Shown here one piece after another: positions 13,529-63,673 of a stretch of DNA of 64,000 bases. Made by a program: the position numbers and the translations under genes. A model generated the notes under the pieces. That model had not been told where the DNA came from and searched no databases. It worked only from the letters and a program-made list of their open reading frames with translations. How positions within the stretch are numbered: position 1 is the stretch's first letter; every line of letters starts with the position of its first letter. Location of the stretch: the NCBI GenBank assembly GCA_023014365.1, contig JAEBUN010000018.1, forward strand, positions 921,990 to 985,989, written 5' to 3'. This DNA is from Lepiota brunneoincarnata. Taxonomy: Eukaryota > Basidiomycota > Agaricomycetes > Agaricales > Agaricaceae.

Positions 13529-14829
13529 TGAAAAGGTAGAAACTTTCGTAGGTTTTAATATAGATAGTGGGCTTGTTTTCACTAAGCTTAGCCACAATTC
13601 GATAAGCTTAAGCTAATACAAGTGGAATGAGATAGATAATGAACAGTTTCATCTTTTAGGGTGTTCTGGGGGTGCGTTCTAACAGCGAAATTCAAGAGAG
13701 TAGTGTTTTTAGAGGTTAACAAACAGCCGTTGAAGTTATCTTAGCCATACAGTGCAACAATGAAAGGACAATCCCTGTCAATTCAAAGCGCAGGGTCTCT
13801 GGTCTCTGGTCTCTGGTCTCTGAACTCTGGTCTCTGTCTCTGTCTCTGTCTCTAGCACTCTGGAACTCTAAACTCTGAACTCTGGTCTCTGTCTCTGTCT
13901 CTGGGTTGGTCGACGACCAAAGAAATCACACTTAACGACGCACACTAAATAGCCCTCTGAAACCGTTCTTGATCACAGCTTGCAGACTTGCATGTGGAAG
14001 TGGGGGTGAGACCTCTTGCTTCTCCATGAACAAGTGCGACCGTATTTATATTGTTTAGATACATACAAGAGATAGTAAATATGAAATAGAAAACAATAAG
14101 CTTAATTGTTACAGGCACTGTAGAACATTTTGGAAGGTTCGGCAGCATTTCTACCTCACCCTGGGTTATGGGTTTTTCTCTGATTAACGAATGGCAATCC
14201 AGCCAGACATGTTCTATGCTCATCTGCATTATTCTGCGTCCACGTGAGCACGTTAAGTTTCCAGATCAATTATGATCAGAATGTATAGTGGATGGACAAT
14301 CCCTTGATCCATTGTAATTAATCTCAGTTAAGCAGTATGCCGAAGTGCCAGGACCCACAAAGCACTCGTTAATTAGGAGTCTTTGATATTTCTAGGGTTT
14401 TGGGCATTGGGTATTGCCTCTCGAATGTTGGACGTTCCGTTCCATGGTCCGGTCATCATTATTGAACTTGCTATAGACATAATACGCCTGCGACAGCCAC
14501 TAGGTACATTCTTTTATGTTCAAATGCATTCGGGTTCATCAGAAAACTGCTTGTAAGATCCCTTGATGCGACCGGGGTATACTCGATAGGCTATGTAGAG
14601 TCCTGAATCCCTCCAGAGAGCGTTCTGATAGCTTGGTTCACTAAGCTTAGTGATAATGAACTGGTTTGAACATGTCCAAGGCTTGAGTATCCTCAATTCG
14701 GTCAAACTGGCTACTACAGGATATAGTACCAATCCTCTATAGAGTTCTTTAATGATATAGCCAATGATTCTATGTAGAGAATCATTCCGGAGTATGGAAT
14801 TCATGTATAGGCGTGAAATCGGCATATCA
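13529..14829 (-). mobile_element. Solo LTR of family B (1301 bp)
   Basis: TGAAAAGGTAGAAAC...GGCATATCA, same length class as the family-B LTRs at 38743-40045 and 62388-63673, and somewhat diverged (CG to TG/CA). Flanks are GCGT(T) and GTGT(T), a target duplication with one CpG transition. It splits the Gag of the decayed Gypsy. It holds four exact TAAGCTTA sites (13583, 13603, 14097, 14642, the last inside the 14-bp palindrome CACTAAGCTTAGTG) and a CTCTGG-type microsatellite (13795-13905). Orientation is by the pol strand of the full element. Confidence 0.9.
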
Positions 14830-38742: not shown

Positions 38743-40045
38743 TGAAAAGGTGGAGAAACTTTCGTTGGTTTTAATATAAATAGTGGGCTTGTTTTCACTA
38801 AGCTTAGCCGCAATTCGATAAGCTTAAGCTAATACAAGTGGAATGAGATAGATAATGAACAGTTTCGTCTTTTAGGGTGTTCTGGGGGTGTGTTCTGACA
38901 GCGAAATTCAAGAGAGTAGTGTTTTTAGAGGTTAACGAACAGCCGTTGAAGTTATCTTAGCCGTATGGTGCAACAATGAAAGGACAATCCCTGTCAATTC
39001 AAAGCGCTGGGTCTCTGGTCTCTGGTCTCTGGTCTCTGAACTCTGGTCTCTGTCTCTGTCTCTGTCTCTAGCACTCTGGAACTCTAAACTCTAAACTCTG
39101 GTCTCTGTCTCTGCCTCTGGGTTGGTCGACGACCGAAGAAATCACACTTAACGACGCACACTAAATAGCCCTCTGAAACCGTTCTTGATCACGGCTCGCA
39201 GACTTGCGTGTGGAAGCAGGGGTGAGACCTCTTGCTTCTCCACGAACAAGTGCGACCATATTTATATTGTTTAGATACATACGAGAGATAGTAAATATGA
39301 AATAGAAAACAATAAGCTTAATTGTTACAGGCACTGTAGAACATTTTGGAAGGTTCGGCAGCATTTCTACCTCACCCTGGGTTATGGGTTTTTCTCTGAT
39401 TAACGAATGGCAATCCAGCTAGACGTGTTCTGTGCTTGTCTGCATTATTCTGCATCCACGCGAGCACGTTAAGTTTCCGGATCAATTATGATCGGAATGT
39501 ATAGCAGATGGACAATCCCTTGATCCATTGTAATTAATCTCAGTTAAGCAGTATGCCGAAGTGCTGGGACCCCCAAAGCACTCATTAATTAGGAGTCTTT
39601 GATATTTCTAGGGTTTTGGGCATCAGGTATTGCCTCCCAAACGTTGGACGTTCTGTTCCGTGGTCCGGTCATCATTATTGAACTTGCTATAGATGTAATA
39701 CGCCTGCGACAGCCGCTAGGTACATTCTTTTATGTTTAAATGCATTTGGGTTCATCAGAAAACTGCTCGTAAGGTCCCTTGATGCGACTGGGGTATACTC
39801 GATAGGCTATATAGAGCCCTGAATCCCTCCGGAGAGCGTTCTGATAGCTTGGTTCACTAAGCTTAGTGATAATGAGCTGGTTTGAACACTTCCGAGGCTC
39901 GAATATTCTTAGTTTGGTCGAACTGGCTACTACGGGATATAGTACCAATCCTCTATAGAGTTCTTTAATGATATAGCCAATGATTCTATGTAGAGAATCA
40001 TTCCGGAGTATGGAATTCATGTATAGGCGTGAAATCGGCATATCA
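38743..40045 (-). mobile_element. Outer family-B element: left LTR (pol-sense 3' LTR)
   Basis: TGAAAAGG...GGCATATCA, 1303 bp. It is followed on the right by the purine tract (AGGGGGAGA on the minus strand, 40046-40054) and by the internal region with the Zn2Cys6 gene, so the element continues right. It is interrupted at 41541/41542 by the inner copy, resumes at 63674 and leaves the window. It has four TAAGCTTA sites at 38799, 38819, 39313 and 39858. Confidence 0.9.
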
Positions 40046-40365
40046 TCTCCCCCTAACCAAATTGCTGACTGTCCTCAGTCATTATCTCCTTCAAATTCAC
40101 AGTATCTGAGTCTCTCTGACGTGCTCTATGGTCTAGAACGTTCACCAGCTTCGAGGGTAGCGCACTTTCGCTAAGCTTATTTCAGAATGATGTCATGTCA
40201 CCAAGTTTAAATGTATAGATCAACTTCTTGTCGCTATAGCTTAAATTTTTATCTCGTTATTGGGTCTTTTAAATGTCCCAAGGTCTCGTTTCATCTCTTT
40301 CGTTCTCCCTCTCACTTCTTACTCGTCTATCCTGCTCGCATACTCACTTTTTAACGCCCACTTCA
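40046..40365 (+). promoter_or_regulatory. PPT and likely promoter of the antisense gene (outer copy)
   Basis: Begins with the minus-strand PPT, then a TAAGCTTA at 40172 and a pyrimidine-rich stretch (40290-40345, ttcgttctccctctcac). CT-rich tracts of this type precede transcription starts in basidiomycetes. It corresponds to 51073-51397 in the inner copy. Confidence 0.5.
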
Positions 40366-41541
40366 ATGGACAGAAACACGCGCAGCAGCAAACGTGCTTG
40401 CTACGAGGAGGACTCGGACTCTTCTTCCAGTAAGTAGAGTTCAAGTTACAGTTTTCTCTGTTTTCTTAACCTGTTTTCAGGCTACCCTGGGCCGAGCAAC
40501 GCCTCAACGGCTTCCCAAGGTGCGCCTTCATCATTGATCGCACAACGTAAGTCGCGTTTTCCCCTGTTCTCGTTGTCTTTACTTATGTTTTCTCTACTTT
40601 TAGGTCTCACTATTCGCCTCCCGGCGCGTCGCAACCTCCTATCTCAATGGGAACCACCAGCACCGCATACTAGGAGGGCTAGAGGAGGGCGAGGAGCTCG
40701 AGGAGCTCGCGGAAATCGTCAGGTGGGTGTGGCAAGGACCCCTCCTCCACCATACTCTCCGCCCTGCGAACCAACTCCTCCGCCGGCCTCTCCCTTGTAT
40801 GCTCCAGTGCCAAGACGCGTGATTTCCATCGTGTCATTGTGCAATCCAACCGACAAGCGCTCTGCCGGATTTTCCGCAGAACTCTCGTCAGGTATCCCCG
40901 TTGGCAGGCCCTCTGGTGGATTATCCACAGAGGCTTCGTCCAGTTCAATGTCGCTGCCCCCTCTCGCCGTCTCTCTGCGCACCCTGGACGAGGAAGACTC
41001 GCTGGTGCTCCCTCCCTTGGGTATTGCATCAGGTTCGGAGGTGCCGGGCCCTTCAACAAACCAGCCTTCTTCCCCCGTACTCTCTTCTGCTACTTCAACG
41101 CGTAAGCTTAGTCATTTTTCACGATATATTTGTTCTTTCCGCTGACTTCTGCTTTAGCGCGTATACCAGCTGCCCTTAAAGGAAAACAGAAGGCAAAACC
41201 ATCGACGCCGCCCCCTACGCCTCTATTTTTGGCAAATTCAAACTCGCCATCACGTTCTCCAGTCCCTGAGATCTCTCAAGCCGACCTCTTTAAAATTTTT
41301 AGCTGGTCCTCGTCTCTGGATGGGCAACATGTGCTGGCTTTGCCTAGGTGCCCAACACCATCACCACCTCACTTAGCTGGTGCTCCAGTCATGTCTCCCG
41401 CAAGCGCCGTGGAGATTTCTCCTTCGCCAGATTTGGAGCTCCTTCTGGAGCCTTTGCCTGCCCCTCAAGAACCGGCTTTTGTTTTTCAAGACGTGTTCTT
41501 AGCTTCTCCGACCCCCGTCCCTTCTTGTTTGCCTAGCCCGG
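40366..41541 (+). CDS. Zn2Cys6-type gene of the outer family-B element, 5' part (split by insertion)
   Basis: Exons 40366-40429, 40481-40546, 40604-41101 and 41158 onward, with the same intron positions and exon lengths (64, 66, 498 nt) as the complete inner copy at 51398. Exon 4 is broken at 41541 by the inner element and continues at about 63679, in frame once one target-site copy is removed (605 nt against 614 in the inner copy). The encoded part is Ser/Pro/Arg-rich (RLPARRNLLSQWEPPAP, PRRVISIVSLCNPTD). Differences from the inner copy (roughly 85% amino-acid identity by eye) include no stop or frameshift, suggesting that the gene was under selection before it was interrupted. Intron 3 starts GTAAGCTTAG, containing the family palindrome. 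Confidence 0.85.
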
Positions 41542-42149
41542 TGAAAAGGTAGAAACGTTCGTATGTTTTAATATGGATAGTGGGCTTGTTTTCACTAAGC
41601 TTAGCCGAAATTCGATAAGCTTAAGCTAATACAAGTGGAATGAGATAGATAAGGAACAGTTTCGTCTTTTAGGGTGTTCTGGGGGTGCGTTCTGACAGCG
41701 AAATTCAAGAGAGTAGTGTTTTAGAGGTTAACGAACAGCCGTTGCAGTTATCTTAGCCGTACAGTGCAACAATGAAAGGACAATCCCTGTCAATTCAAAG
41801 CGCGGGGTCTCTAGTCTCTAGTCTCTGGTCTCTGTCTCTGTCTCTGTCTCTAGCACTCTGGAACTCTAAACTCTGAACTCTGGTCTCTGTCTCTGTCTCT
41901 GGGTTGGTCAACGACCGAAGAAATCACACTTAACGACGCACACTAAATAGCCCTCTGAAACCGTTCTTGATCACGGCTCGCAGACTTGCGTGTGGAAGCG
42001 GGGGTGAGACCTCTTGCTTCTCCACGAACAAGTGCGACCGTATTTATATTGTTTAGATACCTACGAGAGATAGTAAATATGAAATAGAAAACAATAAGCT
42101 TAATTGTTACAGGCACTGTAGAACATTTTGGAAGGTTCGGCAGCATTTC
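41542..42149 (-). repeat. Inner family-B left LTR, first part
   Basis: Part of the pol-sense 3' LTR, interrupted by element A after ATTTC (42145-42149). It contains TAAGCTTA at 41596, 41616 and 42095, and the CTCTGG-type microsatellite (41808-41903). Confidence 0.9.
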
Positions 42150-47655: not shown

Positions 47656-47683
47656 AACCAGAGGGGCATCTGGGTGGTTGGAT

Positions 47684-49503: not shown

Positions 49504-49679
49504 GGGTGCAGAGGGTATGGTGGCCTGCTCTACGGGGGTGTATCACCGGACAGCGACAAGGCGTGTCGTCAGATACGGTTGGCACTCGGATAGCGATAAA
49601 GCGTATCGTCTGCCGGTGTGGAAGGGTAGCGACAAGGCGTACCGATACCACGGGGTGTACGATGGAGTTCGTCCAAAGG

Positions 49680-50389: not shown

Positions 50390-50394
50390 ATTTC

Positions 50395-51072
50395 TACCTT
50401 GCCCTGGGTTATGGGTTTTTCTCTGATTAATGAATGGCAATCCGGCCAGACGTGTTCCGTGCTCGCCTGCATTATTCTGCGTCCACGCGAGCGCGTTAAG
50501 ACTCCGGATCAATTATGATCGGAATGTATAGCGGATGGACAGTCCCTTGATCCGTTGTAATTAATCTCAGTTAAGCAATAGGCCGAGGTGCCGGGACCCA
50601 CAAAGCACTCGTTAATTAGGAGTCTTTGATATTTCTAGGGTTTTTGGGCATCGGGTGTCGCCTCCCGAACGTTGAACGTTCCGTTCCGTGGTCCGGTCAT
50701 CATTATTGGGCTCGCTTTCGACGTAATACTCCTGCGACAGCCGCTAGGTACATTCTTTATATTCAAACGCATCCGGGTTCATCAGAAAACTGCTCGTAAG
50801 GTCCCTTGATGCGACCGGAGTATACTCGATAGACTATGTAGAGTCCTGAATCCCTCTGGAAAGCGTTCCGATAGTTTGGTTCACTAAGCTTAGTGATAAT
50901 GAACTGGTTTGAACACTTCCAAGGCTCGAATATCCTCAATTCGGTCGAACTGGCTACTACGGGACATAGTACCAATCCTCTATAGAGTTCTTTAATGATA
51001 TAGCCAATGATTCTATGTAGAGAATCGTTCCGGAGTACGGAATTCATGTATAGGCGTGAAATCGGCGTATCA
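50395..51072 (-). repeat. Inner family-B left LTR, second part
   Basis: Continuation after element A. It contains CACTAAGCTTAGTG (50882-50895) and a minus-strand open frame (51047-50763, 94 aa) present in all family-B LTR copies. It ends ...GGCGTATCA at 51072. Confidence 0.9.
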
Positions 51073-51081
51073 TCTCCCCCT
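51073..51081 (-). promoter_or_regulatory. Family-B polypurine tract
   Basis: AGGGGGAGA on the minus strand, directly against the left LTR. It primes plus-strand cDNA in pol sense and fixes pol orientation as minus. The same tract lies at 40046-40054 in the outer copy. Confidence 0.8.
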
Positions 51082-51397
51082 AACCAATTGCTGACTGTCC
51101 TCAGTCATTATCTCCTTCAAATTCGCAGAATCTGAGTCTCTCTGACGCGCTCTATGGTCTAGAACGTTCACCAGCTTCGAGGGTAGCGCACTTTCGCTAA
51201 GCTTATTCCAAATGATGTCATGTCACCGAGTTTAAATGTATAGATCAACTTCTTGTTGCTATAGCTTAAATTTTTATCTCTTTATTGGGTCTTTTAAATG
51301 TCCCAAGTTCTCGTTTCCTCTCTTTCGTTCTCCCTCTCACTCTTTATTCGTTTTATCCTGCTCGCAGATCACTCCTTAACGCCCACTTCTATCAACA
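51082..51397 (+). promoter_or_regulatory. Likely promoter of the antisense Zn2Cys6 gene
   Basis: TAAGCTTA at 51198, AT-rich stretch with cttaaatttttatctc near 51265, then a pyrimidine tract (51313-51350) ahead of ATG 51398. Conserved with the outer copy. No clear TATA box. Confidence 0.45.
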
Positions 51398-53436
51398 ATG
51401 GACAGAAACACGCGCAGCAGCAAACGTGCCCGATACGAAGTAGACACGGACTCCTCCTCTGGTGAGTAGAGTTCGTGTTACAATCATCTTTGTTTTTCCT
51501 CACACTGTCCTCAGACTACGCTGGGCCTAGCACTGCCCCTCCGGCCTCTCAGGACGCGCCCTCTTCGTCGATTGCGCAACGTAAGTCTCTTTTCTCTCGC
51601 TCTCGTTGTTTTCCTCATGCTTTCTTTGTCCTTAGGTCTCACTATTCGCCTCCCGGCGCGTCGCAACCTCCTTCCTCAATGGGAACCACCAGCACCACGT
51701 GTTAGGAGAGCTAGAGGAGGGCGAGTGGGACGAGGAGCTCGCGGAAATCGCCAGGGAGGTGTGGATAGGACCCCTCCCCCACCGTACTCGCCGCCCCGCG
51801 AACCAACCCCTCGGCCGGCCACTCCCCTGTCCACTCCTGTGCCGCGACGCGTCATCTCGATCGCGTCACTGTGCAATCCAACTGACGAGAGTTCTGCCGG
51901 ATTGTCCGCAGAACTTTCGTTAGGTATCCCTGTCGGCGGGCCCTCTGGTGGATTATCCACAGAGGCTCCGTCCAGTTCAATGTTGCTGCCCCCTCTCGCC
52001 ATCTCTCTGCGCACCCTGGACGGTGAAGGCTCGCTGGTGCTCCCTCCCCTGGGTATTGCGTCAGGTTCAGAGGTGCCGGGCCCTTCAACAAACCGCCCCT
52101 CCTCTCCTGTAGCCTCTTCGGCTACTTCTACGCGTAAGCTTAAGCCTTTTTCTGCTTATTTCTCCGCTCCTGCTAATAGTGTGCCTCATAGCTCGTATCC
52201 CTGCCGCTCTCAAAGGCAAGCAACGTGCACAGTCATCTGCGCCGCCCCCGTCGCCTCTGTTCCTGGCGAGTTCAAATTCGCCATCGCATTCTCCGGTCCC
52301 AGAGGTCTCCCAAGAAGACCTCTTCAAAATTTTTAACTGGTCCTCTACCCTGGTCGAGCGGAACGCATTGGCCTCTCCCAGGTGTCCTACGCCCTCGCTT
52401 CCTCACTTGGCTTCTGCTTCAGTCGAGTCTCTCCCAAGTCCCGCGGAGGCCTCGCCTTCTCCAGATTTGGAGCTCCTCTTGGAGCCTTCGCCTGTTCCCC
52501 AGGAGCCGGCGTTCGTTTTTCAAGACTCATTCTTAGCTTCTCCAACCCCCGTCCCCTCTCGTTTGCCGAGCCCGGTGGTCCCAGACACATCCCAGTCCTT
52601 GCCTCCCCAAGCCGGACCTTCAGGGTCGCGTCGCGCGCGCGTAACCCTACCGAAGAAAAGCTCTAACACGCGCCCAAAGAAATATACTCCCCGGGCGCGC
52701 ATCCGACGTTCTGAAGCCGAAATAATCCGGGATCATGGATACCGGCACCCAGTCCCGCTCTTTTGTGAGGACTTTTCTAGGCTGCTGGCAGCTAGCCAGC
52801 TTTCGGTACGTTCTCCAAGTTTTTCTCGTGTTTCCTTATTAACTGTTTTGCCCCTTCCCTAGTACGTGCCGCCTCGGTCTCGGTGCACTACTTGCGCCGC
52901 TCGTAAGTTGGAGTGCGAGCCTCTGGGCAAGGGTAAGAAGTGTCGCAGCTGCGACCTGTACAACTACCCCTGTACCTTCGCAGACCATCCGCGAGTCTCG
53001 GCTGGCGTTGCGAACGCCCTGGTCACGTCCTCACTGACCAGTGAATACCGTAAGTTTCTCTGTTCACTGTTTTTCCCATTTATTCACTTTTTATTTCCCA
53101 GATCTTGCTGCCTTCGCACGTGTTGCGTCCTCCAGCTTGGTCAGTCTGGAGGCCAATCGTGTTGCCTACGAGGCATCGGCCTTCCACCACCGCCGTGTAA
53201 TCTACCAGTTCGTCCAGGAGATGCAAGCTACCAGGACGGCCTTGGACGGTAACGACGTGGCGTTCGTGGAGATGGGTATGGCCGAGTCCCTCGAAGACGT
53301 CCAGGCGTTCTTCGAGTTTGCTGACAACTTTCCGGGGGTCCCGACATACGAAGAATTCGAGGAGCTCAAATCGCTCCTCTTCCTCGCTTTCCCGATGACT
53401 CAGGATCCGGAGTCTGTCTTGGAGGACTTGAACTAG
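51398..53436 (+). CDS. Antisense spliced gene 1 of family B: 587-aa protein with C-terminal Zn2Cys6-type cluster
   Basis: Six exons: 51398-51461, 51515-51580, 51636-52133, 52192-52805, 52863-53049 and 53102-53436. Introns are 52-58 nt with standard signals, total coding 1764 nt in frame. Residues 1-45 are short and polar (MDRNTRSSKRARYEVD). About 45-330 is Ser/Pro/Arg-rich. About 345-412 is basic (RPKKYTPRARIRRSEAEII) and contains LFCEDFSRLL. Cys422, 425, 432, 441, 444 and 451 form C-X2-C-X6-C-X8-C-X2-C-X6-C, the spacing of fungal Zn2Cys6 DNA-binding clusters, here unusually near the C-terminus. A helical tail follows (residues 460-587). It lies antisense to pol between integrase and PPT. The outer copy has the same gene structure. 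A nuclear DNA-binding role is inferred from the cluster only. Confidence 0.88.
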
Positions 53437-54057
53437 TGCCTGCTTCCCTTTCCTCTCTTGAATGTAATATATCCTCTTGTCCTGTATATAGTTACATTTC
53501 GCTTAACGATTCTTGTCTCTTGGTATCTTTCTGAGTTAAGCTTAAGGCCCTTCTGGAATATCCCAAGCTAAGCTAAGGCTTCCAGCCGCTTATACGCTCA
53601 TCAGATATTTCTCTGATACTTCTGCTATGTTTATTGACATCTCAGCGCGCCACGATTCGCCATGTGTAGTGAACCGGTCATCCGTTCCGGCTTCATTTAC
53701 AAGCCCGAACCCGAACCAGCCTGTACACGGGGTTTGACGCGCCATTTGCGCCACTTGGGGCCCGTCTCCCCCTAGCCAAATTGAAATCGGTGCCCTCACC
53801 GTTCCATCCGAATCCCTGTGCACACTGATAACCGCGAGACCCTGGCGACCTGTTACCCAATAAGGCAACTGTGGTTCAGCTAGTCTGTCGAAGGCTGGCT
53901 ACTCAAGATTACAGGTTTCCTAGGCCTCTCAGGTCATAAGCTTAGGGTGGAGGGTGCTCTTTATCCACTCGTCATGATTCGTCATCACTGCCGACAGCCT
54001 TTTCTTATAAAAGCGAGGGAGCGACGTCTCATTCTAGCAGACACTCTTTGTAAGAAA
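53437..54057 (+). promoter_or_regulatory. Spacer between antisense genes, with promoter of gene 2
   Basis: Contains TAAGCTTA at 53537 and 53937 and a TATAAAAG box at 54006-54013, about 50 bp before ATG 54058. A minus-strand frame (53868-53590) was not considered real. The first 100 bp probably hold the gene 1 3' UTR. Confidence 0.55.
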
Positions 54058-55405
54058 ATGGCTTCTTCAATCCCCAACCTTCAAGTCGAGCTCGACGATC
54101 TCATCAGCAACACCAAAGGTCGTCTTCAGCGCCTGCAAAACGGTCAAGTCGCTCGTCCCCTCGTCGAGAAGGCTCTCCTCGCATTCGACGCCCCTGGGGT
54201 ATGTCTATTCTTTTCATGCTTCTCTCGCTGTTCCTCAATCATTTCTAGTCTGCTTATATTGAAGCGTTATCGGAGGATAATGAAGCTATCAAGCTTCATG
54301 TCAACCAAGACTACGTCTTCCGTATTCGCAAGCTCTACGAAATTTACCAAAACAACTACCATTCGTCTTATGAGATGCCCGCGATCTATAAGGCGCTCTC
54401 TGAATGCTGTAGCCGCATTAATCGCGTCCGCTCTGAAGAATCCCACAAAACCCGTACCGAAGAGGCTCAGAACCCGTCGTCCACGACTGGCTCTACTTCC
54501 TCCAACGTTGCCGAAGGCTCTGCTGTCCCCAAACGCGTAAGCTTAGCGTTCTTTTGGCTTCAAATCGTCTTCTCATGCATAAGCTTAGCCTCGCAAGGGT
54601 CGCAAGGCCCCTATCTCTGCTGCTGTTGTGGTAGACACCGATACCGAGCCTGCGGAGAGTATGAATAGTGCCTCCAACTCCCGAGCAACTGGTGCTGACA
54701 CGGTAATCTAGCTGCTTCTCAACCTATTACATTGGCTGAGATCATCGCTCGCCTTCAGGACATGATGGTCGACGAGGAGGTCTCTCAAGCTATCGTCGAA
54801 GAGGTTCGTGTAGTTCCGCCTTATCGCAAGCGTCGTTTGTCTACCTCCGACGTGGTGCGCCAGCTCCACTCCCCCCAACCACTGATTCTGACTTCCTCTC
54901 TCTCTAGGAGACTGTCAAAAAGTCCTCATCGTCTAAAGGCTCTGTCCGTCTTCTTCCCTATTGTCAAGTTCCCAATATGAACACTAAACACTGCTGTTAT
55001 GTCCGGGCTGAACAGGTTCTAGCCAAAGCCAGCGCCAATACTGCCAAACGCGCCCGTACCGAGTCTGCTTCTGATGAGCGCACCTTCGCAGGCTTATCCG
55101 GTGGGCAATTTCTCACTTCTGTTCGTTAAGCTTAGCGGTTCTGACACTTTTCCCGGGCAGCTCGTTTGCTCCAGGAACTCCAAAACCTCCTGTCTCACTC
55201 TCGCGACGAGTACGAGTCTGAATCTCGCAGTGACGACGCTCGGTCTGTCAAATGCGACCTCAATTCGCTCAGCCGGGACTTCATCGAGGCTATTCCCTCG
55301 CTCGAAGCTAACTTAAAGAGGTTCCAATTCCTCATTCAAGAGCGCATCCGTCTCAAAAGTCTTTTGCGCAACCTCTCCGACTTGGACAAGCCCCTCCCCA
55401 CTTAA
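54058..55405 (+). CDS. Antisense spliced gene 2 of family B: 338-aa basic, helical protein
   Basis: Proposed exons 54058-54198, 54249-54536, 54589-54667, 54712-54854, 54908-54943, 55016-55100 and 55161-55405, total 1017 nt in frame. The first two introns (50 and 52 nt) and the last are well supported. The 44-nt intron at 54668 (GTGCCT donor) and the 72-nt one at 54944 (GTCCGT, itself open) are less certain. The protein has a helical N-terminal domain (IPNLQVELDDLISNTKGRLQ, then EIYQNNYHSSYEMPAIY), a basic patch likely to be a nuclear signal (PKRPRKGRK), a second one (TAKRARTES), and a C-terminal Leu-rich coiled-coil-like region (ARLLQELQNLLSHSRDEYES). No known family. Intron 54537-54588 begins GTAAGCTTAG and ends ATAAGCTTAG, and the stop codon is the TAA of TAAGCTTAA. 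It converges on pol, with 77 bp between stops. Confidence 0.72.
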
Positions 55406-55482
55406 GCTTAACGCTTTTACAGTCCCTAGGATAGTTTTCCGTCGATAAGTAGATAGTTCTGTCCACAATATCAGGTTTTTTT

Positions 55483-56698
55483 CTATCCTTCCAACTCTTC
55501 CGGCTCCCATCTGTCACTAGGCTCATCCTCAGTAGTCTCCTCCAGGGTCTTCAGTCCCTCTGGCGACAGATCTATCAACTCTTGTAATTCCGGCGGCAAC
55601 GGTATATGTTTCCTGGCTAAGTAGGGAATTACTCTGAACGCCGCCACTTTATTCTGCCATACCGAACCGTCCAACTCTGCCAGGATATAAGATCCTCCCT
55701 TTGATCTAGATATGACCACCATGGGTCCTAGATACCTGGGTTTCATCTTCCTGTCTGCTGAGCTCTCTATAGCCGTATTTCTCACTAATACTAAATCTCC
55801 CGCGCCGAAGCGATAGTCTTTTATCTTATGCGCTGCTTGCCGTTCCATTTCCCAAGCCTTGCTAAGCTTAGTGTCTGAAACACGCTGACGCATCTCCTCA
55901 ACATGCCGAACATGTTTTGCCAAAGCCTGAGCTCGATATCCTATCAACTCGGCCGTGGTCAAGTACTTATTCGGTAGCTGCACCAGCCAAGTGGCCTCTT
56001 TGACATCCAAAGGTAGCGTCGGGTGCGCTCCGGTTACCAAAAAGTACGGGGAACACCCCATTCCTTTTCTAATGGTGATCCGATCTGCCCACATAACGTG
56101 CGGTAGGTGCCAATACCACTTTTTGACGTCTCCATCTGTAGCTTTGTACAACATTTGTCGCACATCCCAGTGGGGTCGCTCAATAATCCCGTTCGCTTTG
56201 GAATTGTAAGGAGATATCGTTACTCCCTTTATCCCATATTTTTCTTCCTAGCCATCGAACAGCTTTCTTAAATGGAGAACCGTTGTCCGTGACAATCTTC
56301 ACTATACAGCCCCATCGGCAAATGATATCTTCGAATAACCACTGCGCGATCGAACTGGCGTTCTCTTTTCTCAACGCTTTTGCCTCCATCCAAGATGACA
56401 GTCCACACCTTCCATGCACAATATAACTACACCCATTAGAACTTGGCGTCATATGTAGTGTGTCCACATGTAGCACTTGGAATATCGACGGCGTGGGCGT
56501 TACTATTGGCGGCGTCTCGATGATCACCTTTTGCCGTTGCTGGCATAGATGGCACGATTGCACATACCAAGCTACGTCTCCTTCAACTTCCGGCCACCAG
56601 AACCTCTGCGTTATAAGCTTAGTGGTTGCGTATATTCCTCTGTGTCCTAGGAAGTCGTGGCTGGCTCGCAACATATACATACGTTGCTCCTTATCCAC
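55483..56698 (-). CDS. Family-B integrase, broken by a 1-nt shift
   Basis: Frame 56698-56180 has the zinc domain ([28 protein letters not shown]) and the first core aspartates ([18 protein letters not shown]). Frame 56163-55483 continues with [28 protein letters not shown] and the [20 protein letters not shown] region. The junction near 56240 (gaagaaaaatatggg) needs one base to restore RKKYG and the core Glu (GIIERPHW), which would lie between the two frames. Catalyses cDNA insertion. The same clade as the decayed copy at 3838-4480. The stop at 55483 lies 77 bp from the convergent gene 2 stop. Confidence 0.85.
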
Positions 56699-56717
56699 TA
56701 CTAGCTGATGCTGACCG

Positions 56718-59108
56718 CTAGGACTTCGTCCTATACAGCCTCCCCTCTTTATCCAAGAAGAAATGCTCTACCATATGCTTAAGCTTACGCAGATCTGGCT
56801 CATCCAAGCCTTCAGCTGCGCTACTGCCCCCTGTTTTCAGGTATTCCCTGACTTTGGGTATCCTTTCATCTTGTATTCGCGCTGTATCTGTCCTGCGCGA
56901 CTCATCATATGTTTCCTCTATCTCGGCCGACTTTTCCTCTTCGAAATCTGGCACTAGCCTGACATCCGTCATTAAGCTTAGTACTTGTCGATGGTTTTCT
57001 GGACAGGCTGGGTCTTCTATAACCCTAAGCTTAGCCTGTTGTTCATCCAAGTACTCTTCCCGGGCTTGATCCAGCTCATACTCAAAATCATACACATCAC
57101 GCGCCAGACCCTGGTTGAAGCCAGAGCGACTGTCGATCTCATCGCAGAAGGCTTCCAAGGGTAAAGGATCTGCGGCCCCTGGATCTTCTTTGATCAGTTC
57201 GAACTCCTCTCCTTCATCCTCGGATCCATCGTCGAAGCGACGGGCTGTCTCATCACCGGGATAGTAGCGTCGCCTGGACAGTCCGTCCGGTCCAAAGTTC
57301 TTCCCTTCTTTGTGTACTAGCGTGAAGTGGAACGACCTAATGAAGTCCACCCAGCGGTTTACTGTGGCGTTCGGGAGCTTCCCTGGGTTGTTTAACATCC
57401 CGAAGAGAAACTTCGCATCCGTCTCCACCACTAAGTTTCTTGATCCCCACAGTAAATATTTCTCTTGTTCCAGCACCATTCTTAAGCCGCATAGCTCTCG
57501 CTTGGGCTGAGAGTATCTCTGCTGTCTTTCATCCAATAATATTGACCCAAACTTCACATAATGTATAAGCTTAGCGTCTTCTCCATCTCTCTGATATATG
57601 TAGTATCCCACCGCCCTCCATGAGGTATCCACGGCTACTACTATGGGTTGTTTACTCGGAAATTCGGGGTTCCTGGTCGGGAAACAGCGCTGAATCGCAT
57701 CTTTCAGCTCCTGCTGCGCTTTCCGTTCGTTTTCTCCCCACTCAAACTCTTGCCCTTTTTTAAGCTTTTCGTACAGAGGTGCCGCTATGGCTATGAACTT
57801 TGGGATATGATTCCTGCAGCGCGTAGCTGTTCCTAGAAAACCCCTTAGCTCGGAGACATTCTCGCAATCCCCCCATCTTAATATCTTCCCAATGGTGTCT
57901 GTAGCAGGCAACCGTCCTTTATATGAGCATTCAAAACCCACCACGGTGATTTCATCAGCGCAGATAGTCGTCTTGGGCCCAGAGAAGGTCCCTCCTACGT
58001 ATTTCATCCTCTGTAGAATCCTATTGACGGTCTGCATGTGTTCCCATACAAATCTTCGGATCCCTGGGTTCTCTTTCAACGTCTCTTCCGTGCCATCTGG
58101 CAACTCATATCTAGTTTTCGGCCCTCTGATAGGTACATCATCTATGTACGGCATCGTGTATTCTGGTATCTCACTGGCTAGGATCGCTGTTACATCCTCA
58201 TGGAATATAGGCACTGAGTTGGTCCATCCCATGGGTAATGTCACTAAGCGTAGCGCTCCAAAAGGCGTCTGGAACGTTGTTAAGTCCCGAGACGACTCAG
58301 CTAACAGTCGCTCGTCATAGCCAACATATAGATCCAGAATGCCTCCGCAAGCTCTGCCTGCGAAGTGCATCGCCAAATCTTCCGTTGCTGGCGGCAGTCC
58401 TGAATGCGCTATCGTCACTCTGTTCAGCGGCTCCAAGCTGTGTACCAGTCTCAAACTTTTCCCATCTTTCTTCACCACACAGAACCATCGGGATCTATAG
58501 GATGAGTTCGACGGCTCGTATACACCAGCACTAATCTTTCTCTTTATAATGGCACAGACTTCATCATAGATCGCTGGTGGAATCGGAATGGGCTTCTCCA
58601 CCCACGGAGTATGTTCTACCGTCGGTATCTCGATCGGCGGGAAGAAGTCTTCCCTAAAACATCCCCTCTCCTCATCTGTCCATGCGAATGCCCTTTCCTG
58701 AAGCATCATGACTTGGTGCATCAGCTTTCTTTCTTCTGGCCACAAGAAATCCCCTGCATGGGCTTCATCCAGCTTAAGCTTGCGCTCCTCCGTATATCTG
58801 CCTGTCGGGACAAACTCTGGAGGATGCATGCTAAGCTTAGGCATTTCTGCCAGCGGATCCCCTTTTATTTCTCGTTTTATCCTGAATTTCTCCGGTAAAT
58901 CACCTAACACTGGCCTCACTTTTAAAGCGACTGGTTTATATTTCTTCCCAGCCAGGCATTGTACAATATCTTCGTCATCCCCTTCAGTTTCGAAGACAGT
59001 CATTCCCTGACCCTCCGTATCCTGTGCGTTGGCGATGCGCCCTAGGCACGAATAACGCCGTTGCTCTATCTTCCTGTGGGCAGTCCTCATCGCGTATGAC
59101 TCGGTCAA
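56718..59108 (-). CDS. Family-B reverse transcriptase and RNase H
   Basis: 796-residue frame. RT has SRWFCVVKKDGKSLRLVHSL, TPFGALRLVTLPMGWTNS and the catalytic YIDDVPIRGP (near 58145), a YIDD rather than the common Y[VM]DD. RNase H starts at VVAVDTSWRAVGYYIYQRD and ends at NFGPDGLSRRRYYPGD. A charged linker of about 150 residues precedes integrase. A 1-nt shift near 56730 cuts the frame just before the integrase start (RLYR, then SPSGQHQL in the next frame). Upstream, a short frame 59235-58984 bridges to the protease ORF, so further frame changes lie at 59.1-59.25 kb. Six exact TAAGCTTA sites lie inside this frame. Confidence 0.88.
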   Translation of the reverse strand: MTESYAMRTAHRKIEQRRYSCLGRIANAQDTEGQGMTVFETEGDDEDIVQCLAGKKYKPVALKVRPVLGDLPEKFRIKREIKGDPLAEMPKLSMHPPEFVPTGRYTEERKLKLDEAHAGDFLWPEERKLMHQVMMLQERAFAWTDEERGCFREDFFPPIEIPTVEHTPWVEKPIPIPPAIYDEVCAIIKRKISAGVYEPSNSSYRSRWFCVVKKDGKSLRLVHSLEPLNRVTIAHSGLPPATEDLAMHFAGRACGGILDLYVGYDERLLAESSRDLTTFQTPFGALRLVTLPMGWTNSVPIFHEDVTAILASEIPEYTMPYIDDVPIRGPKTRYELPDGTEETLKENPGIRRFVWEHMQTVNRILQRMKYVGGTFSGPKTTICADEITVVGFECSYKGRLPATDTIGKILRWGDCENVSELRGFLGTATRCRNHIPKFIAIAAPLYEKLKKGQEFEWGENERKAQQELKDAIQRCFPTRNPEFPSKQPIVVAVDTSWRAVGYYIYQRDGEDAKLIHYVKFGSILLDERQQRYSQPKRELCGLRMVLEQEKYLLWGSRNLVVETDAKFLFGMLNNPGKLPNATVNRWVDFIRSFHFTLVHKEGKNFGPDGLSRRRYYPGDETARRFDDGSEDEGEEFELIKEDPGAADPLPLEAFCDEIDSRSGFNQGLARDVYDFEYELDQAREEYLDEQQAKLRVIEDPACPENHRQVLSLMTDVRLVPDFEEEKSAEIEETYDESRRTDTARIQDERIPKVREYLKTGGSSAAEGLDEPDLRKLKHMVEHFFLDKEGRLYRTKS

Positions 59109-59260
59109 TGAACATTAGCTGTAGCTCGGCCTCTGAGAAGCTTCCTTTTGCTAAGCTTAGTGTTTGTGCGACGACAGGGCCCTTCTCATCATCATAGTCT
59201 ATTATACAAGCCACCTCTCCTTGTCCCTCAGTCAACTCATCGAGGTTTCTTGAAAATTTT
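58984..59260 (-). CDS. Family-B linker ORF between protease and RT
   Basis: Frame reading FSRNLDELTEGQGEVACIID, then AQTLSLAKGSFSEAEL. It overlaps the end of the protease ORF and the start of the RT ORF in different frames. Probably part of one polyprotein interrupted by indels, or reached by frameshifting. No separate function is assigned. Confidence 0.5.
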
Positions 59261-60380
59261 GACTGTTTTCCCTAAGCTTAGGAGGATTACACTCTCCTCG
59301 AGCATAAGTTGGTAACACAGCCCGTTCTCTGGTATTTGGGTCCGTAATAACCAAGGTTTGCTCGCCACTGGCGCTATTCCTGACTTCGCTAGCCGTCATT
59401 ACATCAAAGGGTCGTCCCAAGAGTACTCGATACGCGGGGTTACGAACGATGTGAACTTGCAAATAGATTGTGACTCCCCCGCAGGTAAAGCCTACGTTCT
59501 TTGCCAGTCCACAAGTCTTTTCAACCTGCCCATTCGCACTCTGCAAATTTATCGTAGTATCTGGATCCCAAGAAACTTGACATGCAATCGCCGCTTCCTG
59601 ACTCATGGAGACGATCTGTGACCCGCTATCTAGCAAGGCCTCTTCCTGCCGAATCCCATTTATCAGAGTTGGCACTACTCTCAACGGCTCGCATTCTTTC
59701 GCAATAAACACTTGCCGTCCCCTGTCTCTTCGAGGAAGTGACTCCAAGTACTGCATGATTGGATCCTGCGCTACCCAGGCTTGGGTTGCCGAGCCTTCTC
59801 GGAGCACTGTATCATACTTCCGAGTGCCGTCTGCTAGCTCCGTTATCATGACTTGTACTGGCCCACTATTAATCTCTATATCTTCTGTATCATCGTCCCA
59901 GGGCCCTACTCCTGCTATTAAGCTTTGACTTGTGGGTACCCGTTTTCTCATAATGCGCTCCCTATAAGCGTTCCTGTATATCGGTGACAATGCCAAGAGT
60001 TCTCCATGCGATACTGAGGCTTCTCGCTTCAATACCCTGCTGAGTACTTCCTCCACATCGACACTCCTCTCTATAGGGGCCTGGTGCTTATACGCAGGCT
60101 CCTTCTTAGATGGTTCCATCCTTCTGACAGGCAACGGTGGCACCTCAACGACCGGGCGCAGTGGTTTCACATTTCTATATGGTAATTCCCCTGCTGCAGC
60201 ACGCACTGGTTCCTCCGTTGTCTGCCCTATTTCCTCATTTTCTGATTCTTCTGATCGCTCGGAATCCGACGCGTCCTCAGGAGTCTGTCCTCTGGCGAAG
60301 GCGACCTTCTTCTTCAGAGCCGGCTCCTTCCTCGAACCCTTTAGAAACCCGACTCCGAGTTCCAAGTCTTCGCGCCACTC
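59232..60380 (-). CDS. Family-B protease ORF
   Basis: 377-residue frame. The first 240 residues are acidic and Pro-rich, with a helical segment (VDVEEVLSRVLKREASVSHG). The retropepsin part has EEALLDSGSQIVSMS (catalytic DSG) and ends VHIVRNPAYRVLLGRPFDVM. It overlaps the Gag end by about 25 nt in the -1 frame (Gag TGGAACTCGG..., Pro TTGGAACTCGG...), consistent with -1 frameshifting or an in-line junction. Releases mature Gag and Pol proteins. Confidence 0.82.
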   Translation of the reverse strand, partial: EWREDLELGVGFLKGSRKEPALKKKVAFARGQTPEDASDSERSEESENEEIGQTTEEPVRAAAGELPYRNVKPLRPVVEVPPLPVRRMEPSKKEPAYKHQAPIERSVDVEEVLSRVLKREASVSHGELLALSPIYRNAYRERIMRKRVPTSQSLIAGVGPWDDDTEDIEINSGPVQVMITELADGTRKYDTVLREGSATQAWVAQDPIMQYLESLPRRDRGRQVFIAKECEPLRVVPTLINGIRQEEALLDSGSQIVSMSQEAAIACQVSWDPDTTINLQSANGQVEKTCGLAKNVGFTCGGVTIYLQVHIVRNPAYRVLLGRPFDVMTASEVRNSASGEQTLVITDPNTRERAVLPTYARGECNPPKLRENSQNFQETSMS

Positions 60381-62362
60381 CTGGTGTCCAAATACTGGCT
60401 TGCCGAGGGCGTACCATCCGTCAGACCACTAAGCTTAGCCTGTATCTGGGCCAATTGCTCGGCCAAAGACTGTATCTCGACGTTATCATCCTTTCTTGTC
60501 ATAAGCTTAACCTTTGGGGTACTCCCAGCGTGGATGGCAGCTGTCTCCAACATTTCCATGCGCTGCTTCAGACGGCGGATTTCTTCTTCCGCTGGCGACC
60601 TTTGGTTTTCTGACCTCGGGAACGCTCTCTGTGCAAACACTGCTGACGTTGGTACTTGCGGTAACTCAGGCTCAACCTCCGGCAGTTCTGGTATCTGAAC
60701 GAAGAGTTGTCCCTTTGTCGCATAGTACTTTGCCACTTTCTCTTTAATAGGCCCTTCTCCTCGAGGGATACTCGAGCCGTCTCCCATATATATTTTGTTC
60801 CCTTCGACTCTAATTCGGCCGGCTTGTTTATCCGCCTCCATGTCCGGGCAGAATAACCAACTATGCCCTAATAACCAGCAGTAGAAACACTTGCGATCGG
60901 AAAGCGACCCTGCCGGCCCACTTCCGGTATTCCTCTGGGCGTGATTATAACCGGCATGATTATGTCCGTCTTTCGCCGAGCTCTCTAAATATGTTTTTAA
61001 GGTATGCCCCTGGATATTCATGAGGTCCTTAAGCTCAGCGAGGCCACCTGCCATCTGCGAGACTTCATCCTGAAATTTCTGCTTTAAGCTTTGCAGTTCT
61101 CGCTTTACCACCGGGTCATAAGTCCCTGTTCCGGACGTCGCAGGTGGATGGCTCATCGATGCCGAGTTTACCGGCCTCAAATCCTGATGAAGGGATCGCA
61201 TAAGTGTTTTGCCAATCGAAATTTCGACAGCTTTATCCACGACAATCCTCCAATCATAGGGGTCCTCTTCGCGTAAATCCTTCGCAGTCAGTGCCGACCC
61301 ATCACTTGCGGTTCTACGCGCCCCGGTGATCGCTAATCTCGCATTGAGCACATCCTGGAACACCGAGTCCAGTGCGCTCGTAAATAACTCGACTAGCTCT
61401 CGGTTCGAGACTACCGCCGGCGACTTTAGACACTTCTCTGCTTCGAGAATGAATCGCCTTTTAAAGTCCAAGACTTTATGCTCCTCATTCATCGCAATGC
61501 CTCTACTCTCTGCGCAGAGTTCCCTCAAGCGTCGCACTGAGCCCTGCTCGGCTGCCACAGCCTCGGGATACTCTTTCTTTAATCTCTCTACGAAGCCTGT
61601 CCAGCTTCCTGCTAAGAACTCCGCAAAACTCATCCACTCTTCACGGATATCCTGGTCCACATATGACACCGCCCAATTTATTCTTTCTGCCTCGTCCGTC
61701 GTCTTCGTTATCGTGAAGAGACGTTCCAGCGTCCAGAGATAATTTCTCAATGTCTGTGGTTTTGATGCATCCCACCTGGGAGCATTATTGCTAAAGGGAA
61801 TTGGCATACGCTCGTGTCCCATTTTTCTAGCTGTAGTCGTCGTCGACGGCGTAGTTTGGTTTGTCTGTACAGTCGGAGTTGACTGTGATATCTGTGGTAC
61901 CGTGGGGGCACCAAAAGGGTTCGTATGAAACGAGTTTTGGTTTGGTAACGCTAAGCTTAGCATAGGAACGGTCTGACCGTCCTGGTTTTCGGTGTGCAGA
62001 ATATGCGCTATGTTGCGAGCTGAGGCTGGAAGCCTTATAGTAATTCTGGGAGCAGTAGAGATCGGCGGTACGGCTTCTCTCAATACTGCAACTGCTGAAC
62101 CACTCGCTGTGTTCGCAGCTAAAGCGCTAACGGGATCTTTTCGCTTTCGAGAGGTACTAGCGGCGATGAGGCCTTCAGAACCTTCTGGACGATTGGAGTT
62201 CCAAGTAGGTCTCTGTTTTGGTGGGTCGACCGTCCTGAGACTGCTCTCGAAGGACGTTTTGGGTGACTTTACGGTCTTTGCTTGAACCTTTTTCTGCTTC
62301 GCAGGTGAAAGGCAGGCCAGTGTCCAAGTCTTTTGGTGTTTGTCTCGTGAAATTCAACTGAA
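60341..62362 (-). CDS. Family-B Gag
   Basis: Open from about 62362 without an ATG until MLSLALPNQ (near 61963), whose ATG abuts a TAAGCTTAG site. The true start may lie upstream through an intron or in the LTR. The capsid-like domain has NYLWTLERLFTITKTTDEAE, WAVSYVDQDIREEWMSF and FKRRFILEAEKCL. The zinc knuckle is CFYCWLLGHSWLFC (near 60885). A C-terminal coiled segment follows (EEEIRRLKQRMEMLETAAI, then AEQLAQIQAKLSGL). Forms particles and packages RNA. Confidence 0.8.
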
Positions 62363-62366
62363 AACC

Positions 62367-62385
62367 CCCCTCGCGGTGGGCTCCA
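62367..62385 (-). promoter_or_regulatory. Family-B primer-binding site
   Basis: Two bases inside the right LTR on the minus strand, TGGAGCCCACCGCGAGGGG. It is the complement of a tRNA 3' end terminating in GGGCTCCA. The primer tRNA was not identified. It matches the PBS of the decayed Gypsy at 16671-16690. Confidence 0.75.
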
Positions 62386-62387
62386 GA

Positions 62388-63673
62388 TGAAAAGGTAGAA
62401 ACGTTCGTATGTTTTAATATGGATAGTGGGCTTGTTTTCACTAAGCTTAGCCGAAATTCGATAAGCTTAAGCTAATACAAGTGGAATGAGATAGATAAGG
62501 AACAGTTTCGTCTTTTAGGGTGTTCTGGGGGTGCGTTCTGACAGCGAAATTCAAGAGAGTAGTGTTTTAGAGGTTAACGAACAGCCGTTGAAGTTATCTT
62601 AGCCGTACGGTGCAACAATGAAAGGACAATCCCTGTCAATTCAAAGCTGCGGGGTCTCTAGTCTCTGGTCTCTGGTCTCTGTCTCTGTCTCTGTCTCTAG
62701 CACTCTGGAACTCTAAACTCTGAACTCTGGTCTCTGTCTCTGTCTCTGGGTTGGTCGACGACCGAAGAATTCACACTTAACGACGCACACTAAATAGCCC
62801 TCTGAAACCGTTCTTGATCACGGCTCGCAGACTTGCGTGTGGAAGCAGGGGTGAGACCTCTTGCTTCTCCACAAACAAGTGCGACCGTATTTATATTGTT
62901 TAGATACATACGAGAGATAGTAAATATGAAATAGAAAACAATAAGCTTAATTGTTACAGGCACTGTAGAACATTTTGGAAGGTTCGGCAGCATTTCTACC
63001 TCACCCTGGGTTATGGGTTTTTCTCTGATTAACGAATGGCAATCCGGCCAGACGTGTTCCGTGCTCGCCTGCATTATTCTGCGTCCACGCGAGCGCGTTA
63101 AGACTCCGGATCAATTATGATCGGAATGTATAGCGGATGGACAGTCCCTTGATCTGTTGTAATTAATCTCAGTTAAGCAATAGGCCGAGGTGCCGGGACC
63201 CACAAAGCACTCGTTAATTAGGAGTCTTTGATATTTCTAGGGTTTTGGGCATCGGGTGTCGCCTCCCGAACGTTGAACGTTCCGTTCCGTGGTCCGGTCA
63301 TCATTATTGGGCTCGCTTTCGACATAATACTCCTGCGACAGCCGCTAGGTACATTCTTTATATTCAAACGCATCCGGGTTCATCAGAAAACTGCTCGTAA
63401 GGTCCCTTGATGCGACCGGAGTATACTCGATAGACTATGTAGAGTCCTGAATCCCTCTGGAAAGCGTTCTGATAGTTTGGTTCACTAAGCTTAGTGATAA
63501 TGAACTGGTTTGAACACTTCCAAGGCTCGAATATCCTCAATTCGGTCGAACTGGCTACTACGGGACATAGTACCAATCCTCTATAGAGTTCTTTAATGAT
63601 ATAGCCAATGATTCTATGTAGAGAATCGTTCCGGAGTACGGAATTCATGTATAGGCGTGAAATCGGCGTATCA
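62388..63673 (-). repeat. Inner family-B right LTR (pol-sense 5' LTR)
   Basis: 1286 bp, same length as the reconstituted left LTR. TAAGCTTA at 62442, 62462, 62942 and 63486. Minus-strand frames 63074-62790 and 63648-63364 are shared with other LTR copies. Confidence 0.92.

Follow-up and report, generated by a model that had tools for sequence, protein, structure and literature searches.

Family B, a Ty3/gypsy-type LTR retrotransposon, carries the 8-bp palindrome TAAGCTTA at 24 distinct sites per element, 20 of them internal and four in the LTR. The excess of this word is limited to B when compared with element A, family C and the other sequence of the window, i.e. the whole 64-kb stretch of DNA analysed here. 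We propose, with about an even chance of being right, that a putative DNA-binding protein encoded by the element recognises TAAGCTTA, the core of the extended motif CTAAGCTTAG, as a family-specific site and would thereby mark the element's own copies.

The window holds 38 exact copies of TAAGCTTA, against a mean of 0.69 and a maximum of 4 in 100 dinucleotide-preserving shuffles. Four lie in each of four LTR copies (at 13.6 kb, at 38.8 kb, in the LTR interrupted by nested element A and at 62.4 kb), 20 in the internal region of B and two in the outer, truncated B copy, and none was found in element A or in other non-B sequence of the window. The exact positions thus bear out the tally of the original prediction; the range given there, 51198..61959, covers the internal sites and is incomplete, as the feature extends into the LTRs. 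A count of 8-mers, suggested as a check, places TAAGCTTA at the top of all exact 8-mers in the internal region (20 against 0.15-0.18 expected), where its one-mismatch relatives are few (8 against 3.8 expected). A soft preference for C in the flanks yields CTAAGCTTA(G); beyond this C/G preference the flanks vary from site to site, and a longer shared repeat around the sites was rejected on this basis. Regular spacing was likewise rejected, the distances being irregular (42-1450 bp, mean 566, CV 0.83).

The genome-wide count, set beforehand as a test capable of refuting the excess, gave 5370 sites in 55.6 Mb, as compared to 842, 419 and 675 for the control palindromes ATTCGAAT, TTAGCTAA and AATCGATT, respectively. 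Among the first 100 of the 5370 places listed (C1:207723-876105), with the last excluded, three have no other listed match within 2.5 kb; two of these (L001 and L002), taken with their flanks, had no blastn match to B, and the third lies inside family C. Pairs of TAAGCTTA 12 bp apart, as in the LTR pair, occur at 550 places in the genome.

Assignment of B to the Ty3/gypsy type is based on its LTRs, its protease and RT-RNase H domains and, by comparison with family C, its pol order. The element lies on the minus strand, with the 5' LTR at 62388..63673 (sites at 62442, 62462, 62942 and 63486) and the internal region at 51079..62387 (sites at 51198, 52135, 53537, 53937, 54538, 54580, 55127, 55403, 55863, 56614, 56780, 56973, 57026, 57566, 58832, 59152, 59273, 60430, 60502 and 61952). 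The other LTR, on the same strand, is split by nested element A (about 42150-50389, borders approximate) into a part at 50390..51078, with one site at 50885, and a remainder at about 41542-42149, with sites at 41596, 41616 and 42095. A gag-like open frame of 670 aa (60341..62353, minus strand, three sites) is named by its position and a zinc knuckle-like CX2CX4HX4C, and had no Pfam match. It is followed, also on the minus strand, by the protease ORF (59232..60428, gag-asp_proteas, Pfam E 2.7e-8, one site), the RT/RNase H ORF (56718..59114, RT_RNaseH, Pfam E 4.1e-12, five sites) and the C-terminal pol/integrase ORF (55483..56247, one site, 55863). RT/RNase H is separated from integrase in this copy, and 15 of the 56 listed matches lie in a 1261-aa frame, in some cases across stop codons. 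Many homologs contain RNase H and PF17921 domains, which also fits the Ty3/gypsy type, and just one of the close homologs bears a species name, from Agaricus. B-like elements of Agaricus bisporus match in pol at 67% (P0004), and no viral contig was found for P0004. Two further B copies, with approximate borders, lie in the window: an LTR at 13538..14700 (sites at 13583, 13603, 14097 and 14642) and a truncated copy at 38754..41543, with LTR sites at 38799, 38819, 39313 and 39858 plus a stretch of internal sequence that shares about 80% identity with 51301-52577 (sites at 40172 and 41103).

As originally predicted, sites are found in LTRs, introns, spacers and coding DNA, and one additionally overlaps a stop codon. 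Eleven of the 20 internal sites fall in gag-pol (6754 bp), four in the 546 bp of introns of two predicted antisense genes and five in 1168 bp of spacer, the introns and spacers being the densest compartments, and none in the 2842 bp of predicted plus-strand exons. Codon-preserving shuffles of the gag, PR, RT-RH and INT frames (n=5000) gave a mean of 0.077 sites and a maximum of 2 as compared to the 10 observed; the excess thus persists under codon-aware randomisation, the second check that could have overturned it. In coding DNA the word is read in two phases, as K-L and as L-S-L, and the RT-RH residues that it encodes are poorly conserved among the 12 closest relatives (identity 0.35 against 0.64 for other residues), with random blocks equally poorly conserved in 1.2% of draws. 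A point against the proposed reading is that at site 58832 the residues PKLS, as in B, are found in 42 of 120 homologs. Survival of codon shuffling, the two phases, the non-coding sites and the poorly conserved RT-RH residues together indicate that a DNA word rather than a peptide recurs. The earlier wording that this word is 'kept' holds less firmly, since retention partly reflects the absence of CpG. The codon-shuffle and compartment results point to selection. Motif turnover also favours the proposed reading: of the sites 58775 and 58832, 57 bp apart, clade B1 has one and clade B2 the other.

Antisense gene 1 (51398..53436, plus strand) is predicted to have six exons encoding 587 aa and to contain a Zn2Cys6-like cluster, C-x2-C-x6-C-x8-C-x2-C-x6-C, at 52884..52973 on the plus strand. 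Zn_clus domains follow the spacing rule C-x2-C-x6-C-x5-12-C-x2-C-x6-8-C. The cluster fits this rule and is the sole match to a slightly looser pattern in the six frames of the window, and L051, L052 and a distant homolog with 61% identity across the C-terminal exon retain its six cysteines. A family with a gene 1 homolog at 61% lies near C60:120804 and C35:357839. The score lies below the Pfam PF00172 (Zn_clus) cut-off (16.7 against 21 bits for the domain region, 13.5 for the full protein), and zf-ChsH2 scores higher over 17 residues, also below its cut-off (20.8 against 23.2). Gene 1 is under purifying selection, with exon dN/dS of 0.16-0.20 in three comparisons. A protein-database search at E <= 1e-3 retrieved no relative of residues 370-587, and a 105-aa piece had no match among solved structures. 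Antisense gene 2 (54058..55405, plus strand), with six predicted exons and 358 aa, was searched at the same threshold, again with no relative retrieved. The predicted introns of both genes are short and of fungal type. TAAGCTTA is located at the predicted 5' splice site of gene 1 intron 3 (52134), at both ends of gene 2 intron 2 (54537-54588) and within gene 2 intron 5 (55127), while another copy overlaps the gene 2 stop codon (55403). A role as splice signal was rejected, as just three of the 20 internal sites (52135, 54538 and 54580) lie at predicted intron ends.

In the mechanism that we propose, B itself would encode a sequence-specific binder, and we infer that it is probably dimeric, with the spliced product of antisense gene 1 and its Zn2Cys6-like cluster as the leading candidate. 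Zn2Cys6 proteins are best known for binding CGG half-sites, which are absent from TAAGCTTA. According to the available part of its description, the Zn2Cys6 protein XlnR binds GGCTAA, so CTAA-type sites can be read by such proteins (PMC6323846). With sites distributed across LTRs, introns, spacers and coding positions that tolerate them, the protein would mark its own family and not the sister families. Acting in trans, it might maintain open chromatin at copies of the family or the activity of their promoters, i.e. an anti-silencing or activating outcome, in a host where CpG is rapidly lost from transposon copies, presumably through methylation.

Family C, 64% identical to B in pol at the DNA level, has no TAAGCTTA excess, and none of the nine B sites alignable to C is TAAGCTTA there. 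A different word, TAGKTAAC, is dispersed in C, less strongly enriched (13 against 0.83 expected) and found after the fact; its value of 10^-11.2 compares with at most 10^-8.0 for the best words in 40 Markov simulations and with the 10^-10.3 reached by low-complexity words in other real stretches. The third sister, D (L047), is without TAAGCTTA and matches C or B over just ~1.5 of 9 kb, so that this absence carries little weight. In the part of the C locus analysed, which stops short of where a gene 1 would lie, gene 2 and not gene 1 was identified as the antisense gene, and on this ground the gene 2 protein could alternatively be the motif reader. We tentatively advance a wider possibility, namely that every gypsy family of mushrooms has a private DNA password distributed along the entire element (TAAGCTTA in B, TAGKTAAC in C). 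The family's own antisense-encoded candidate protein, either that of gene 1 with its divergent Zn2Cys6-like cluster or that of gene 2, would read it in trans and protect or activate no other family in a fungal genome of CpG decay, which would constitute a convergent counterpart of VANC, in retrotransposons, with the code placed within coding DNA.

Alternatively, a host DNA-binding protein, i.e. a transcription, chromatin or nuclear-position factor, may bind the sites and be exploited by the element without any element-encoded reader. The motif is short and resembles a transcription factor site with a soft flank preference, and the LTR, the usual place of host-factor action, holds four of the 24 distinct sites. 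However, such a factor should have its sites chiefly in the LTR, yet the other 20 lie in the body; sharing with other families would also be expected, yet no excess is seen in C, in A or in the remaining window sequence, and C has a different word. We therefore consider a host factor unlikely.

That the word has no function, having been multiplied by drift, short-repeat spread or mutational bias, shared by descent and spared as CpG-free, is less probable still, although part of the retention data agrees with it. The evolutionary tests rest on one common phylogeny, and the pol alignment comprises 30 loci. Retention of TAAGCTTA exceeds that of matched controls devoid of CG, TG and CA in 12 of 12 sequences and is significant in only two, L041 (17/18 retained, p 0.0035) and L042 (18/20, p 0.0056), which are the loci with most sites; the other ten sequences have p 0.056-0.54. 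The synonymous-site check suggested with the original prediction was favourable in that no change was seen at motif codons in nine loci; it has limited force, as the same-codon non-CpG control expects just 1.8-3.6 changes per locus (P(0) 0.03-0.16). Conservation at face value was rejected, as the p-values from local controls weaken once CpG-free 8-mers serve as control. Copies keep TAAGCTTA above background, with much of that retention reflecting the lack of CpG in the motif in a genome of fast CpG decay: in six old loci CpG was lost at 1322 of 1807 places, as compared to 8.5% change at other bases. To look for a protective footprint of the motif, CpG loss was counted by distance to it (<=50, 50-150, 150-300 and >300 bp) and was 89/604, 292/1242, 281/1206 and 161/981 in 15 B2 loci, 15/533, 52/1086, 49/1053 and 30/858 in 13 young loci, and 160/226, 397/542, 402/538 and 363/501 in the six old loci; loss near motifs is not cleanly below that farther away, and other bases vary with distance, too. 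The shrinking excess and the strong CpG decay thus speak for a functionless word. Nevertheless, descent leaves unexplained why about 24 unrelated places in one element bear the same 8-mer, the differing flanks show that they were not copied within a longer repeat, a general mutational bias would not spare C, A and the remaining window sequence, and the evidence for selection given above also stands against it.

A site for a DNA-modifying or recombination enzyme, such as a methyltransferase-linked palindrome, as proposed for cyanobacterial HIP1, or a hotspot of recombination or gene conversion, has a similarly small chance of being the explanation. It would suit the exactness of the palindrome, with its few one-mismatch relatives, and the mosaic look of clades B1 and B2, which are about 83% identical in gene 1 and about 95% in pol. 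However, no such Pfam domain was found in the element proteins scanned, and the excess is confined to one family and is not genome-wide. Finally, a function in the element transcript (packaging, dimerisation or processing), also raised originally as RNA structure, is improbable: the palindrome could pair between RNA molecules and some sites lie at predicted splice signals of the antisense genes, yet these are only the three noted above, and predicted accessibility at real sites does not differ from that of the motif placed randomly in B (minus strand 0.454 against 0.431, p 0.59; plus strand 0.388 against 0.435, p 0.29).

If an element protein does read the word, sequence-specific self-recognition would have evolved separately in transposons of two kingdoms and two classes, and a DNA-binding code embedded in the protein-coding sequence of a retrotransposon would be seen to be under selection. 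Fungal LTR elements would then offer a compact test bed, with one 8-bp site, two candidate proteins and a site-free sister as control; even with a host-factor reader, a strong, family-specific and body-wide word needs explaining. Our literature search, short on subscription journals, turned up no description of a recognition word that is dispersed and family-specific in LTR retrotransposons of fungi. The cyanobacterial HIP1 is a frequent 8-bp palindrome as well (PMC4390886); in the available part of that report it is genome-wide in bacteria and discussed with methyltransferases, whereas the TAAGCTTA excess is confined to one transposon family. Fungal DNA transposons encoding TET/JBP dioxygenases, in Agaricomycetes and other fungi, have been proposed to escape methylation (PMC12730594); their route is enzymatic, and the accessible text describes no family-specific word, whereas B is an LTR element with such a word. 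Similar in layout is the plant gypsy element Retand, whose long region between pol and 3' LTR holds antisense ORFs suspected to encode DNA binders (PMC11963269), as B has antisense gene models between pol and 3' LTR. Retand differs, as far as the source text at hand goes, in its TRP28 domain and tandem repeats, as compared to the Zn2Cys6-like cluster and dispersed word of B; the B antisense proteins had no Pfam match to TRP28 (PF04195), and their host is a fungus, not a plant.

A further close parallel is the VANC/VANDAL system, in which, according to the available portions of the reports, a short word is enriched in one transposon family and rare in its sisters, which have other motifs, and extra genes are present (PMC5735166, PMC10398659). 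The motif of B is similarly enriched in one family relative to A, C and the other window sequence, and family specificity, spliced antisense gene models and the Zn2Cys6-like cluster fit the VANC-like reading offered in the original prediction. VANC motifs are described in the accessible text as tandem arrays with a shared orientation, located chiefly in non-coding DNA (PMC5735166), whereas the sites of B are single, dispersed and palindromic, with more than half of the internal ones in gag-pol, so the reading fits only in part. VANDAL is, moreover, an Arabidopsis MULE DNA transposon with proven binding, and B a fungal LTR retrotransposon with a candidate reader. The motif of B thus resembles VANC/VANDAL self-recognition in the manner of convergence.

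The window (C12:921990-985989 within a 55.6-Mb assembly of 95 contigs) contains 38 copies of the palindrome TAAGCTTA, as compared to a mean of 0.69 and a maximum of 4 in 100 dinucleotide shuffles. Of these, 20 lie in the internal region of the gypsy-type LTR element B, where a second-order Markov model predicts 0.18. Genome-wide there are 5370 copies, against 842, 419 and 675 for three control palindromes matched in base composition (two contain CpG), and pairs separated by 12 bp, the LTR-pair spacing, are found in 550 genomic places. One-mismatch variants are in mild excess (8 versus 3.8 expected), and because they lie little above expectation, the enrichment is one of the exact word. The immediate flanks favour C (26 of 48, from 24 distinct sites), and T is disfavoured one position further out (2 of 48).

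Besides several B sequences, the window comprises a nested element of gypsy type (A) and further sequence. Element B is oriented on the minus strand, with LTRs of ~1.29 kb and the gene order gag, protease, RT-RNase H, integrase. Pol of the window copy is divided into two separate open frames; 15 of the 56 matches listed are set in a 1261-aa frame, some with stops read through. The sole species-named close relative of the B RT protein comes from Agaricus bisporus (67%), and two further relatives reach 72%; the host is thus presumably a mushroom-forming fungus, as the intron type of the antisense genes would also suggest. Between the integrase and the left LTR lie two predicted plus-strand genes with short, fungal-type introns, i.e. 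gene 1 (51398-53436, predicted spliced product of 587 aa) and gene 2 (54058-55405, predicted to be spliced to 358 aa in a single clean frame). Element A (42390-50394) appears from its ORF to have a chromodomain-like tail, and carries four copies of ATGAGTCAG (versus 0.03 expected), which may be a word of A's own, linked to its LTRs. Elsewhere, 31054-38058 holds related ORFs resembling multi-pass membrane proteins in appearance (31030-31329 and 37123-37422 share ~86% DNA identity), and 25428-27305 holds an open frame of 625 aa, toward the end of which a long repeat (EELKRVQEAK) resembles a coiled coil.

The 20 internal sites are distributed over gag-pol (11 in 6754 bp, including the stretch separating the two pol frames), the introns of genes 1 and 2 (4 in 546 bp) and spacer (5 in 1168 bp, counting by its midpoint the site at 55403, which starts with the gene 2 stop codon), with none in the 2842 bp of plus-strand exons. 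Ten sites fall in the gag-pol frames, as compared to a mean of 0.077 and a maximum of 2 in 5000 synonymous-codon shuffles. Five sites in RT-RH touch 19 residues, whose agreement with the 12 closest homologs is 0.35, versus 0.638 for the remaining residues; random blocks are equally low in 1.2% of draws. The PKLS residues at site 58832 recur in 42 of 120 homologs, which counts against low residue conservation at motif sites, and in none of the 12 closest. Predicted intron 2 of gene 2 (54537-54588) starts with GTAAGCTTA and finishes with TAAGCTTAG, so that both predicted splice signals of this 52-bp intron come from the motif.

The sister family C, with 64% DNA identity to B in pol and 12 protease matches of at least 88% among 150 scored, has a single TAAGCTTA in ~12.9 kb. 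It lacks the word at all nine B sites that can be aligned with it, and its own sites coincide with no B site; the closest approach, between C1:691176 and 59273, would amount to ~12 bp. The strongest C word is instead TAGKTAAC (13 versus 0.83 expected, 11 of 13 in the same orientation), present in the inferred LTR, gag, pol and the antisense region. Its score of 10^-11.2 compares to 10^-8.0 for the best of 40 Markov simulations of the same sequence and to values up to 10^-10.3 for purine-run words in other real stretches. Site retention in copies of C is 11/11, 7/8 and 4/5, at p 0.049, 0.041 and 0.38, respectively, versus local 8-mers (without CpG control). Genome-wide TAGKTAAC shows no excess (857 + 865 versus 2433 + 2348 for the reversed control), compatible with a low-copy family. 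The data are suggestive of a word of C's own. Triplets of TAGTTAAC ~1360 and 79 bp apart, as at C1:694538-695989 (locus L044) and many other genomic places listed, are probably solo LTRs of C. The sequence of a third sister family, D, is incomplete.

Thirty pol loci form two clades, B1 and B2, ~4.5% apart. Eight of 13 motif positions are intact in all 30 and three in 27, 28 and 29, the losses being partly gaps; the remaining two split 15:15, with 58832 intact only in B1 and 58775 only in B2. In the four older loci covering both, 58775 is present throughout and 58832 in two (L039, L042). Older loci retain 10/13 (L039), 2/2 (L040), 17/18 (L041), 18/20 (L042), 4/6 (L045) and 7/9 (L046) window sites, and motif codons show no synonymous change in nine loci, versus 16-39% at other synonymous sites. 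However, these six old loci have lost 1322 of 1807 CpG places (~73%), with 8.5% of other bases changed, and in-frame stops among the B copies listed are mostly TGA, indicating that transposons of this genome undergo strong CpG decay, which probably stems from methylation. As TAAGCTTA is free of CG, TG and CA, the conservation signal is cut down. Against 8-mers equally free of these dinucleotides, retention is higher in 12 of 12 sequences, reaching significance in just two, L041 (p 0.0035) and L042 (p 0.0056), with p 0.056-0.54 in the remaining ten. With identical codons outside CpG as the control, motif codons should have accumulated 1.8-3.6 synonymous changes and show none (P(0) 0.03-0.16; five loci with one common history). 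Site conservation therefore agrees with selection, yet is insufficient to carry the case, which rests on abundance, confinement and placement.

Gene 1 contains a C-x2-C-x6-C-x8-C-x2-C-x6-C cluster, and its exons have dN of 0.08-0.11 and dS of 0.48-0.55 (ratio 0.16-0.20) in comparisons with two B2 copies and the window's truncated B copy; pol against one B2 copy gives 0.023 and 0.25 (ratio 0.09). Between B1 and B2, gene 1 is ~83% identical (dS ~0.5; window 51398-53436 versus L051 and L052) and pol ~95% (dS 0.25), so the element looks mosaic, or gene 1 and pol have separate histories. Two equally scoring homologs at 61% identity, C60:120804-121136 and C35:357839-358171, are probably another sister family; all six cysteines are retained in a more divergent homolog, which is 61% identical across the C-terminal exon and whose 1.2-kb stretch lacks TAAGCTTA. 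For gene 2, dN/dS pairs are 0.063/0.302 (L042) and 0.123/0.404 (L039) in exons 1-2, 0.120/0.233 and 0.086/0.445 in exons 3-5, and 0.084/0.148, 0.114/0.508 and 0.107/0.162 (L041) in exon 6, taken in the frame terminating at the stop codon, where constraint is therefore weaker.

We propose that the sites could be bound by a homodimeric protein, if site number matters, since the word is exact, palindromic, element-wide, confined to one family, located in protein-tolerant places and exchanged over short distance. Such a putative reader would discriminate B from its sister families, which suggests that B encodes it, and strong CpG decay would give B reason to resist silencing. CpG loss close to the sites shows no clear reduction as a direct footprint. 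The product of gene 2 remains a rival candidate, as gene 2 is the antisense gene detected at C: the match at C1:685195-685599 is likewise antisense (28.7%, E 1e-6 without composition correction) and contains stops. Its membership in C is likely, albeit unproven, because it lies just outside the part confirmed by a second copy (read to 685641). The candidate reader that we favour would be the gene 1 product, which is conserved and has a cluster of DNA-binding type. Zn2Cys6 proteins are not restricted to CGG, as XlnR recognises GGCTAA (PMC6323846), which resembles the GCTAA half-site favoured in B, an analogy of our own.

Among known systems, the likeness of the B word to HIP1 is limited to form (PMC4390886). 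Other fungal transposons have been proposed to carry TET/JBP enzymes against silencing (PMC12730594). By analogy, B may function like the VANC/VANDAL anti-silencing system of Arabidopsis, yet it is not a member, its carrier being an LTR element, and VANC targets are marked by tandem non-coding arrays, which B lacks (PMC5735166 and PMC10398659). Compared to the plant Retand elements (PMC11963269), B is without the Retand domain but has antisense genes in common with them.
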